From Sulfurovum sp. NBC37-1 (lineage in GTDB: Bacteria > Campylobacterota > Campylobacteria > Campylobacterales > Sulfurovaceae): a stretch of DNA of 64,000 nucleotides. Positions 3,788-59,674 of this stretch are shown piece after piece. A program made the position numbers and the translations under genes. The stretch spans positions 1,984,001 to 2,048,000 of the forward strand of contig NC_009663.1 in the NCBI RefSeq assembly GCF_000010345.1, given 5' to 3'. The notes below the pieces were generated by a model. It worked only from the letters and a program-made list of their open reading frames with translations. It did no database searches and was not told the origin of the DNA. Numbering within the stretch: the first letter of the stretch is position 1; every line of letters starts with the position of its first letter.

Positions 3788-3821
3788 TTTCTGCTATAAT
3801 TGCATCAATTATCTACAGAAA
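3788..3821 (+). promoter_or_regulatory. Promoter of der inside a palindrome
   Basis: An extended -10 box gcTATAAT lies at 3795-3800, 30 bases before the der start. It is embedded in an imperfect palindrome: TTTCTG at 3788-3793 pairs with CAGAAA at 3816-3821, and TAATT at 3797-3801 pairs with AATTA at 3807-3811. No convincing -35 box is visible, as is common for the vegetative sigma factor in this phylum. A similar arrangement is seen at trpS (5453-5483). Confidence 0.55.
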
Positions 3822-3829
3822 GAATATTC

Positions 3830-5233
3830 ATGCAAGAACACAACCTAACAAAAGTAGCCATACTCGGCCGTCCCAATGTCGGAAAGAGTTCCCTCTTCAA
3901 CCGTCTTGCCAGGCAGAGAGATGCCATTACCTCTGATGTATCCGGTACAACACGCGATATCAAAAAACGCCTTGTGACCATTTCAGGCAACCGGGAATTC
4001 GAAGTCATAGACACCGGAGGAATAGACTACTCCTCAGAACTTTTCTCCAAAGTGGCGGACTTCTCGCTCAAGGCAGCCGATATGGCTGATGTGATCATTT
4101 ACATGGTCGACGGGAAGACCCTGCCCGATGAAGAGGACAGGGAACTCTTCTACAAACTTCAGGCACTGGGCAAACCGCTTGCGCTTGTAGTCAACAAGAT
4201 CGACAACGACAAAGAGGAAGAACGCTACTGGGAATTCCTTGAATTCGGTGCCGATGCCACCTTCCCTATGTCGGTGAGCCATAACCGTTATTTCAACGAC
4301 TTCTACGCTTGGCTGGAACAGTATATTCCGGCTGTAGAAGAAAAAAAACCGCTTGAACTGACAGAAGATGAGATCGATCCCTTCGAGGAGATCGTACGCG
4401 ATATCAACAGTACCGCTGAAGAGGCGGACAACAAGATCAGCGTGGCTATTATCGGACGGGTCAATACAGGAAAAAGTTCCCTGCTCAATGCCCTGCTCGG
4501 GGAAGAGCGCTCCGTAGTATCGGATGTCGCCGGTACGACCATCGATCCTATCGATGAAACGATAGAACACAATGACTATGAGATCACCTTTGTGGACACA
4601 GCCGGTATCAGAAAACGAAGCAAGATCGTCGGTATAGAGAAGTACGCTCTGGGCCGTACGGAAGCGATGCTCGAAAAAGCGGATATCGCCCTTCTTATCA
4701 TCGATGCTACAGTCGGTGTGACAGAGCTGGATGAAAGAGTGGCCGGACTCATAGAAAAGTTCAGACTCAGTGCGCTCATCGTTATCAACAAGTGGGACAT
4801 CCGCGGCGAAAAGACGTATGAAGAGGCGGTGGACGACATCCGTGACGAGCTAAAGTTCCTGCACTATGCCCCACTCATCACCATCTCGGCAAAGACCGGC
4901 ATGCGCGTGAACAAGATTCTCGACCAGATCACGGCGATCTATGAGAGATACAAGCAGCGTATCTCTACTTCCAAGCTCAACGACGTACTCAGGGAAGCCA
5001 TGCAACGCCACCATGTCCCATCATACAACGGTGCACTGGTCAAGATAAAGTTCGCCACACAGTACGAGACCAAACCGCCAAAGATCGCACTGATCACCAA
5101 CCGTCCCGACGGCCTGCACTTCTCCTACAAGCGTTACCTGGCAAACTACATCAGAAGCAAATTCGATTTCGAAGGTGTACCGCTGGATATCGTTGCCAGA
5201 AAACGCGGAGAACGCTTCGAAGAAGATGAGTAG
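3830..5233 (+). CDS. der: GTPase Der (EngA), ribosome biogenesis
   Basis: Tandem-domain GTPase that binds the 50S ribosomal subunit and is needed for its maturation. The 467-residue protein shows the first G1 loop GRPNVGKSS at residues 13-21, the DTGG motif of G3 soon after, NKID as G4, then the second G domain with GRVNTGKSS at 209-217, DTAG and NKWD, and a C-terminal KH-like domain ending KRGERFEEDE. I started it at the ATG at 3830, which begins directly before the first beta strand; an in-frame TTG at 3800 overlaps the -10 box and is therefore unlikely. It appears to be monocistronic and is followed directly by a structured element at 5234. Confidence 0.97.
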   Translation: MQEHNLTKVAILGRPNVGKSSLFNRLARQRDAITSDVSGTTRDIKKRLVTISGNREFEVIDTGGIDYSSELFSKVADFSLKAADMADVIIYMVDGKTLPDEEDRELFYKLQALGKPLALVVNKIDNDKEEERYWEFLEFGADATFPMSVSHNRYFNDFYAWLEQYIPAVEEKKPLELTEDEIDPFEEIVRDINSTAEEADNKISVAIIGRVNTGKSSLLNALLGEERSVVSDVAGTTIDPIDETIEHNDYEITFVDTAGIRKRSKIVGIEKYALGRTEAMLEKADIALLIIDATVGVTELDERVAGLIEKFRLSALIVINKWDIRGEKTYEEAVDDIRDELKFLHYAPLITISAKTGMRVNKILDQITAIYERYKQRISTSKLNDVLREAMQRHHVPSYNGALVKIKFATQYETKPPKIALITNRPDGLHFSYKRYLANYIRSKFDFEGVPLDIVARKRGERFEEDE

Positions 5234-5307
5234 CGTTAAGAAATCGTGAACTGCTTCACGATTTTAGCTACGGAACCAGAGTGGTGGAACGAAGTGACCC
5301 ACGAAGG
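5234..5307 (+). other. Structured two-hairpin element, copy A (after der)
   Basis: Starts at the base after the der stop codon with CGTTAA, then a perfect 10-bp stem AAATCGTGAA/TTCACGATTT (5241-5250 with 5255-5264) closed by the loop CTGC. A linker TAGCTACGGAACCAGA follows, then a second hairpin: GTGG, bulged T, G, a GA/GA tandem mismatch, AC, loop GAA, GT, then CCCAC (5281-5302). Copy B at 58789-58862, on the other strand after rimP, keeps the loop, linker and tandem GA while the paired bases differ in a compensatory way. It could act as a terminator or a processing site, or be a mobile repeat. I do not recognise it. Confidence 0.6.
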
Positions 5308-5418
5308 GATCAAACTCTAACAATAAAAACAAATCTGCTTCTCATTTGGTGCCTGTTTACTCATTCTGCACACCACACATACTTTAAAATAGCAAGCTTT
5401 TTGAAAAAAGCATACCCC

Positions 5419-5446
5419 AATTTCTAATTTCTAATTTCTAATTTCT
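5419..5446. repeat. Heptanucleotide tandem repeat (AATTTCT)x4
   Basis: Four perfect units of AATTTCT followed by a partial unit, directly upstream of the trpS promoter palindrome. The 5308-5418 stretch before it is AT-rich and I see no gene in it. The unit length of seven is shared with arrays at 6458-6478, 13266-13334 and 15861-15888. Confidence 0.9.
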
Positions 5447-5452
5447 AATTCT

Positions 5453-52111: not shown

Positions 52112-53822
<1,711 letters not shown>

Positions 53823-58764: not shown

Positions 58765-58788
58765 TGCCACTCCTTTTTTTATGCTTTG

Positions 58789-58862
58789 CCTTCGTGGGTC
58801 GCTTTGCTCCACCACTTCGGTTTCGAACCTACAAAGGACAAGCAGTTGTCCTTTGTTTAACG
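58789..58862 (-). other. Structured two-hairpin element, copy B (after rimP)
   Basis: On the minus strand, five bases after the rimP stop, CGTTAA is followed by a perfect 11-bp stem ACAAAGGACAA/TTGTCCTTTGT with loop CTGC. A linker TAGGTTCGAAACCGAA (itself able to pair GGTT with AACC) leads to a second hairpin GTGG-T-G-GA-GC, loop AAA, GC-GA-CCCAC, then GAAGG. Compared with copy A (5234-5307) the loops, linker ends and tandem GA are kept, while almost every base of stem 1 and the pair next to the second loop change in step. Confidence 0.6.
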
Positions 58863-58866
58863 GTTC

Positions 58867-59295
58867 TCACCACTCAAAATAGGTTTTTACTGTACCAAGA
58901 TCACTGTATGAGTAGCTCTCTTCACCCTGTTTTGTTTCAACAGTGATGCCCTTATCATCGGCAGCTTTCAATACACCTTTGAGCTTGTCACCCCCTAAGA
59001 GTTTGACCTTGACCTTTTCACCGATGGCATTTTGGAAATGTATTGGTTTGGAGAGTTTTCTCTCGATACCGGGAGAACTCACTTCCAGGCGATAATGGCC
59101 GTTCATGGGAGGATGTACATCTAGAAAAGGTGAGAGTTCATTGGAGATCGTTGCGCACAGATCGAGATTCACACCGCCCGTTTTGGTAATAAGTACGCGG
59201 TAGATCGTCTCATCGAATTCATTCGCTGTTTCGATATCATAAAGCGCCGCTCCGTTTGCTTCTACGATCTTTGAGATCTGTGCTTCAAGATTCAT
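58867..59295 (-). CDS. rimP: Ribosome maturation factor RimP
   Basis: Helps assemble the 30S subunit. From the ATG at 59295, with AAGGA eight bases before it, the product has 142 residues: an N-terminal alpha/beta domain (NLEAQISKIVEANGAALYDIE), the L-x-x-C-A-T-I-S-N-E-L-S segment, RLEVSSPGIERKLSKPIHF with the conserved SSPG-x-R, and a C-terminal SH3-like barrel ending TVKTYFEW. The start overlaps the end of rbfA. The stop is followed by structured element B. Confidence 0.94.
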   Translation of the reverse strand: MNLEAQISKIVEANGAALYDIETANEFDETIYRVLITKTGGVNLDLCATISNELSPFLDVHPPMNGHYRLEVSSPGIERKLSKPIHFQNAIGEKVKVKLLGGDKLKGVLKAADDKGITVETKQGEESYSYSDLGTVKTYFEW

Positions 59296-59674
59296 TTGGA
59301 CTGTCCTTTTCTTCTGCATCCTCTTTTTCTCTACTGATCTGCTTGAACAGCTCTTCCATGCGGCTTACTTTTTCCAGCTGTTCATCGAACTCAAAAGTAA
59401 AGCGCGGTGCTTTGAACCATCCTTCACTCTGTTTACAGTGGTTTTGAACATACCCTGCAACCGTTCTAAGCTGTCTGAGTGCTTCACTCTGCTCTTTGGG
59501 AGAGAGAAAGGACTTGTCCAGATAGACCTTGGCATCCGAACGCCCTTTTGAACAAATGACATCGGTGACCACCAACGCATTGATTCGTTCATCATCCAGG
59601 GTGCTCAACGCTTCGGGAATGATCTCTTTGAGAACGGACTCGACCCTGTGCCGTTTAATTTCTTCTTGTGTCAT
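59285..59674 (-). CDS. rbfA: 30S ribosome-binding factor RbfA
   Basis: Late assembly factor of the 30S subunit. The ATG at 59674 follows the infB stop by a single base and gives 129 residues: RHRVESVLKEIIPEALSTL, the strand INALVVTDVICSKGRSDAKVY (split here as INALVVTDVI and SKGRSDAKVY), and RFTFEFDEQLEKVSRMEELF, with the usual KH-like fold. The C-terminal tail is acidic. A longer form starting at 59701 would lie inside infB. Confidence 0.92.
   Translation of the reverse strand: MTQEEIKRHRVESVLKEIIPEALSTLDDERINALVVTDVICSKGRSDAKVYLDKSFLSPKEQSEALRQLRTVAGYVQNHCKQSEGWFKAPRFTFEFDEQLEKVSRMEELFKQISREKEDAEEKDSPNES

Follow-up and report, generated by a model that had tools for sequence, protein, structure and literature searches.

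What kind of element places the same two-hairpin fold, built from different bases, behind der and again behind rimP in Sulfurovum sp. NBC37-1? Both copies lie in the 64,000-nt stretch of this genome that we analyzed (NC_009663.1, positions 1,984,001-2,048,000, forward strand; hereafter the window). Re-inspection of the sequence agreed with a preliminary description on the positions of both copies, on their perfect stems of different sequence around an identical CTGC loop, on a closing pair that changes in step from A-T to G-C and on a conserved tandem G-A mismatch. The element that it outlined was real, but its extents (5234-5307 and 58789-58862) were too short: the true unit has 82 nt and starts with TGAG. 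Likewise, the stems and the loop had been drawn correctly, but an outer 5-bp helix had been missed, and the second hairpin as then delimited is flanked by a further pairing, CC 5276-5277 with GG 5306-5307 (Table 1). As developed below, we consider it probable that the two copies belong to a Campylobacterales family of non-autonomous mobile elements of about 82 nt, with two different hairpins, that persist as folded RNA at the 3' ends of genes.

Both 82-mers were recognized by covariance models of the family, copy 1 with 95 bits under a first model and 96.5 bits under a second, and copy 2 with 105.4 bits under the second. The minimum-energy fold of each reproduced the two-hairpin structure exactly (z -3.2 for copy 1 and -4.7 for copy 2), and the outer helix tabulated for copy 1 is replaced in copy 2 by GAACC/GGTTC. 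A chance origin of the pair could be excluded because the second-hairpin pattern GTGGTGGANCNAAGNGACCCACGAAGG, with up to three mismatches, matched just these two copies in the window and nothing in 100 shuffles. The upstream genes were identified with NCBIfam models, der by TIGR03594 (493.7 bits; cut-off 306.7) and rimP by NF000936 (246.4 bits; cut-off 205). Ahead of the gene that follows der (TrpS-like by eye), the window also carries a short tandem repeat, AATTTCTAATTTCTAATTTCTAATTTCTAATTCTC (5419-5452), and strings resembling it stand at the same place in several relatives.

Table 1. Coordinates in the window of the two element copies, their structural parts and the neighboring genes.
Feature	Position	Strand	Remark
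der, ribosome biogenesis GTPase	3800..5233	+	upstream of copy 1
Element copy 1	5227..5308	+	82 nt, overlaps der end; covariance model match
Leading TGA of copy 1	5227..5229	+	out of frame; der ends ...GAT GAG TAG
der stop codon TAG	5231..5233	+	within outer helix of copy 1
Hairpin 1, copy 1	5230..5271	+	outer helix, GTTAA/A loop, inner stem and CTGC loop
Hairpin 1 outer helix, copy 1	5230-5234/5267-5271	+	GTAGC/GCTAC, 5 bp
Hairpin 1 asymmetric loop, copy 1	5235-5239 opposite 5266	+	unpaired GTTAA opposite A
Hairpin 1 inner stem, copy 1	5240-5250/5255-5265	+	CTGC loop 5251-5254
Hairpin 2, copy 1	5276..5307	+	
Hairpin 2 base pairs CC/GG, copy 1	5276-5277/5306-5307	+	
Hairpin 2 stem GTGG/CCAC, copy 1	5281-5284/5299-5302	+	bulged T 5285
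Hairpin 2 upper part, copy 1	G5286-C5298; 5287-5288/5296-5297	+	G-C pair, tandem G-A, AC-GAA-GT tip
Gene after copy 2, start ATG	58764-58762	-	RibD-like by eye
Element copy 2	58788..58869	-	between rimP and next gene; covariance model match
TGA, first three bases of copy 2	58867..58869	-	rimP stop codon
rimP, ribosome maturation factor	58867..59319	-	upstream of copy 2

The short pattern was matched in 19 of 100 relatives, all from the host genus. A covariance-model search, as the preliminary description had suggested, did bring up further copies. The first model, built from 26 copies, matched in 113 of 299 sampled Campylobacterales genomes, spread over 42 of 81 genera; the second, built from 135 copies, matched in 46 of 249 genomes and 27 of 55 genera of a phylum sample. 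The host genome holds 14-16 copies, the weakest of which are fragments in arrays, and numbers per genome range from 1 to 20. As a negative control, we used 100 unrelated stretches (0.73 Mb) picked for containing the hairpin-2 core pattern; nothing convincing was found there with the second model, which we regard as specific because it gave just one match in this control, at E 9.1. The family had not been recognized from the letters, and Rfam 15 likewise gave no match, whether the element was taken from the window or from 16 related loci, while the short stretch alone produced chance-level matches only. Plasmid and phage collections yielded no match to the element, and five pattern matches in viral contigs were set aside, as none scored with the covariance model. 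We found no description of the element in the openly accessible literature searched, and it is apparently undescribed.

Throughout the family, the bases of the stems vary and their pairing is kept. In an alignment of 128 distinct copies, which was fitted to the structure and is therefore biased towards it, 97.2% of cells hold a standard pair and 23 of 25 pairs are changed on both sides; slid controls of the same alignment left 35-45% of cells paired, and the covariation score was 0.58 compared with 0.16 after shuffling and at most 0.08 after sliding. The first MAFFT alignment, which was not fitted to the structure, had 95.5% of cells paired and 17 of 25 pairs double-changed (31-41% paired in slid controls). 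The two outcomes that the preliminary description had named as speaking against it, no further copies and no excess of compensatory changes, thus failed to appear, and its suggestion of a conserved covarying structure at 3' ends was supported across the order. Two of the most constant features are the asymmetric GTTAA/A loop and, in hairpin 2, the CC-GAA...GAA-GG frame. For the top of this hairpin, at least three types were seen (GYGGTGGAGCAAAGCGACCYGC, GYGGTCGGAGCGAAGCGAAGCCGC and GGCGATGTCTCGAAGAGACCGCC), and more distant genomes have a different linker, GCAC with GGCG/CGCC. Compensation could be followed in place at one orthologous gene end, where three lineages carry the arms GAAGAAC/GTTCTTC, AACGCAC/GTGTGTT and GACGTAC/GTACGTC, and where the 5' arm doubles as coding sequence for the last residues of the protein. 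Judged from these sequences, selection on the RNA fold is likely; we do not call it proven, because templated correction of DNA hairpins could also keep the arms paired.

Of the loci, 62 sites were retained as independent. A purine directly precedes the element in 60 of them, and position -3 is A in 63%. The sites favor gene 3' ends, with 34 of the 62 overlapping a long upstream sense frame. At 19 sites the first triplet of the element is the stop codon of that frame, at 13 more the stop lies further inside, and two sites read through. The last sense codon of the 19 genes is ATG in 11 and TGG in five, that is, 16 of 19 against a background of about 5% (3 of 56 long window frames; in unrelated DNA, 27 of 809; binomial p about 4e-18). 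Where the orthologues of fabG, groEL, radA and rimP are empty, they keep a native ATG or TGG, followed by TAA/TAG or else by a short extension of one to a few codons. The target is therefore native sequence, and the TGA arrives with the element. The earlier observation that both window copies have CGTTAA within five bases of a stop codon is accounted for in the same way. Stops in all three sense frames were considered as a designed feature and dropped as unconvincing (39 of 62 sites; shuffled mean 29, maximum 40).

Neighboring copies stand head-to-tail in 40 of 41 pairs. At the grpE site (L164 and relatives), the first 20 bases of the element encode MVSTAK*, where the native GrpE end is MVSTSK* written in quite different codons; on sequence grounds, the element was apparently recruited there as the C-terminus of the protein. 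A repeat at this site, considered as a target duplication, is instead what is left of another tandem copy, which G015 has in fuller form.

The preliminary description had offered a mobile repeat as one possibility, and comparison of occupied with empty orthologous sites supports that the element is mobile. At the der site it is present in the host only: of 29 relatives compared, one ends before the site and the 28 readable ones are empty, the nearest of them with Der 95-96% identical. The rimP site is occupied in 7 of 30 genomes. When the flanks of further element sites were searched in eight genomes, the host and its close relative G050 were found to differ in both directions. G050 is occupied and the host empty at groEL, and the host is occupied and G050 empty at sites 1, 6 and 8, of which site 6 belongs to a PilT-family gene. 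Site 8 has a clean junction, reading CCAGG/element/T-GCCTGAACTC in the host and CCAGG-CAAAA-GCCTGAACTC in G050. At the end of host groEL (52145-53773), TAA and an inverted repeat of its own, AAACGCTTTGCAGCGTTT, run from 53773 where G050 carries the element; one 3' hairpin replaces another. In many genomes, the element is found at the ends of fabG, rimP, grpE and groEL. Vertical inheritance may account for some intact copies, and the recurrent presence at fabG, rimP and groEL could alternatively reflect long retention for function.

Copies also occur at the borders of stable RNA genes. In G111 and G077 (loci L386 and L389), they are found in the 16S-23S spacer, on the 23S side of the tRNA, and each genome has three identical, equal-scoring matches, which suggests one copy per rRNA operon; in G063 (L390) a copy lies ahead of 16S. 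Several genomes have copies antisense beside tRNA genes (L289, L290, L292, L297, L301 and L306); most follow directly on the T-arm complement (...CGAACC), and 15-60 nt of tRNA 3' end and flank recur downstream. Altogether, at eight of 95 loci, mostly tRNA/rRNA borders and one other site, the 15-60 nt before the element are repeated 33-105 nt after it, and the left copy of the repeat ends at the element start or within 3 nt of it. Gene-end sites generally have no such direct repeats. Target duplication was accordingly rejected as a general rule, being found at just these eight loci, which for their part fit poorly with a simple, duplication-free insertion of a single strand.

Two further settings were noted. 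In two genomes (G389 and G418), copies sit at the ends of tail-like prophage genes named by eye (L397, L398 and L383), a location that is a possible route of horizontal spread. At L184, an RHS-type frame (779-1584, named by eye and known from the occupied copy alone) is split by the element, and a RAYT-like Y1 gene follows on the same strand at a distance of about 190 nt; no other neighbor of this kind was seen.

A hairpin-recognizing transposase had been put forward as the agent of spread, and this suggestion was not borne out for the Y1 (HUH) enzymes that we took as the candidate mover within the genome. The host has 16 Y1_Tnp (PF01797) matches, genes as well as remnants, some of them RAYT-sized (258-270 aa); their positions include 1781128, 1048226, 1336840 and 755784 in host genome coordinates. 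Around ten host Y1 genes, the covariance model gave no convincing match to the element out to 1.5 kb, and no autonomous relative with the ends of the element around a Y1 transposase was found near these ten genes. Of the 113 element-bearing genomes, 49 have no Y1_Tnp match, and co-occurrence of the two, uncorrected for kinship, is weak (odds ratio 1.8, p 0.02). On these grounds, a Y1 transposase is not supported as the mover within the genome; a diverged, lost or different enzyme may be responsible.

We propose that the element moves as a single strand through the action of a trans-acting enzyme. It inserts in one fixed orientation behind a short target that ends in a purine (approximately A-K-R, typically ...ATG or ...TGG). 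Its left end, TGAG, provides the stop codon when it lands directly behind the last sense codon, and a stop further inside, such as the TAA of CGTTAA, otherwise terminates the gene. This supplied stop would make the element harmless at gene 3' ends, its usual location, and local multiplication would build the head-to-tail arrays. Once inserted, the element would form the first part of the transcribed 3' UTR. The fold would be kept most likely because the mobilizing enzyme recognizes the folded single strand; the RNA hairpins may also protect or delimit the upstream transcript, as is thought for REP elements, and by this analogy a host role as 3'-end RNA, with some benefit to the host, is plausible. 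Perhaps, and we say so tentatively, the family forms a class of its own among bacterial mobile elements, characterized by two covarying hairpins, a choice of gene 3' ends and tRNA/rRNA borders, a stop codon of its own, an unrecognized enzyme and order-wide retention as 3'-end RNA.

Other explanations place the emphasis differently. The element could be mainly a cis-acting 3'-end RNA (a stabilizer, processing signal or termination signal) that is kept for function and rarely copied. This would fit the pairs kept in place by different complementary arms in three lineages, the recurrence at fabG, rimP, grpE and groEL, the sense orientation at gene ends and the presence, in some genomes, of a copy in every rRNA spacer or leader. 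We nevertheless judge it unlikely, given that close orthologues lack the element at der and at most rimP sites, that copies lie antisense beside tRNA genes and interrupt the RHS-type frame, and that no intrinsic-terminator-like site, a G+C-rich stem with an immediate T run, is present at either window copy, on which anatomical ground an intrinsic terminator was rejected; templated correction would, moreover, also keep arms complementary. Covariation in DNA hairpins can occur without selection, and the element might be inert DNA from a short ancestral repeat whose arms are held complementary by templated (quasi-palindrome) correction alone. Such correction would not preserve an asymmetric loop and non-standard pairs, and both the GTTAA/A loop and the CC-GAA...GAA-GG frame persist across families; insertion is also sequence-selective, and this is the explanation that we consider almost certainly wrong. 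A retro-element or SINE-like mode, in which a structured RNA is copied into target DNA by a reverse transcriptase in trans with duplications of variable size, would make sense of the eight loci with direct repeats around the element. Those repeats could, however, be later tandem duplications, most gene-end sites have no duplication and readable junctions such as site 8 are clean, which leaves this mode improbable.

Slightly harder still to credit is that the element is a member of the GTAG or CGTC REP families catalogued for this strain. In its text, the survey by Di Nocera et al. 2013 (PMC3733652) names Sulfurovum NBC37-1 among the hosts of both types, describes REPs as adjoining gene 3' ends and states that GTAG termini often provide a stop codon; the host also has the RAYT-sized Y1 genes. 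The closest known kind is indeed the REP family (REPs and REPINs with RAYTs), with which the element shares short, palindromic, non-coding repeats, gene 3' ends, the ability to supply a stop and local clusters. However, REPs carry a GTAG or CGTC tag at the hairpin foot, whereas the element starts with TGAG, TGAA or GGAG and has no constant tag. A REP is a single palindrome of 20-40 bp, its dimers are mainly head-to-head or tail-to-tail and RAYT genes are flanked by REPs; the element is modeled as one family of 82 nt with two different hairpins, forms head-to-tail arrays, occurs in few copies and has no flanking transposase near the ten host Y1 genes. CGTC REPs (including RPE-4/RPE-6 and dRS3) are likewise palindromic, are reported in Sulfurovum and have no known dedicated transposase, but the same text gives them stems of 8-9 bp whose first two pairs have AT, together with a CGTC tag and a tail resembling CCA, none of which is constant in the element. 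The element works like a REP and is not filed as one, because it lacks the tag, the size, the dimer arrangement and the transposase link; this separation rests on text descriptions, the published Sulfurovum consensus in the figures of PMC3733652 lying outside the comparison.

Two other known systems share some traits with the element. Miniature elements derived from IS200/IS605 (PATEs) have a hairpin close to each end, a fixed orientation with respect to a short target and clean junctions. The element resembles them in its end hairpins, its clear target preference in one orientation and its clean junctions at some sites such as site 8, but differs in the 15-60 nt direct repeats at eight loci and in having no transposase-bearing relative with its ends near the ten host Y1 genes. 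Integron attC sites are imperfect hairpins with paired core boxes, RYYYAAC and GTTRRRY. The element is also an imperfect hairpin, and its string GTTAAGC/GTTAGGC resembles the core GTTRRRY; it has no complementary RYYYAAC box and no cassettes, and attC was ruled out because GTTAA is unpaired opposite a single A in the consensus structure.

On this reading, about 38% of the Campylobacterales genomes sampled would contain a mobile element that rewrites the ends of genes and has gone unannotated. The element also directs attention to a mobilizing enzyme that is yet to be found. Copies in rRNA spacers and leaders and beside phage-like genes can matter for annotation. The natural pairs of occupied and empty sites offer a way to learn how a stable fold at the stop codon affects termination and transcript ends.
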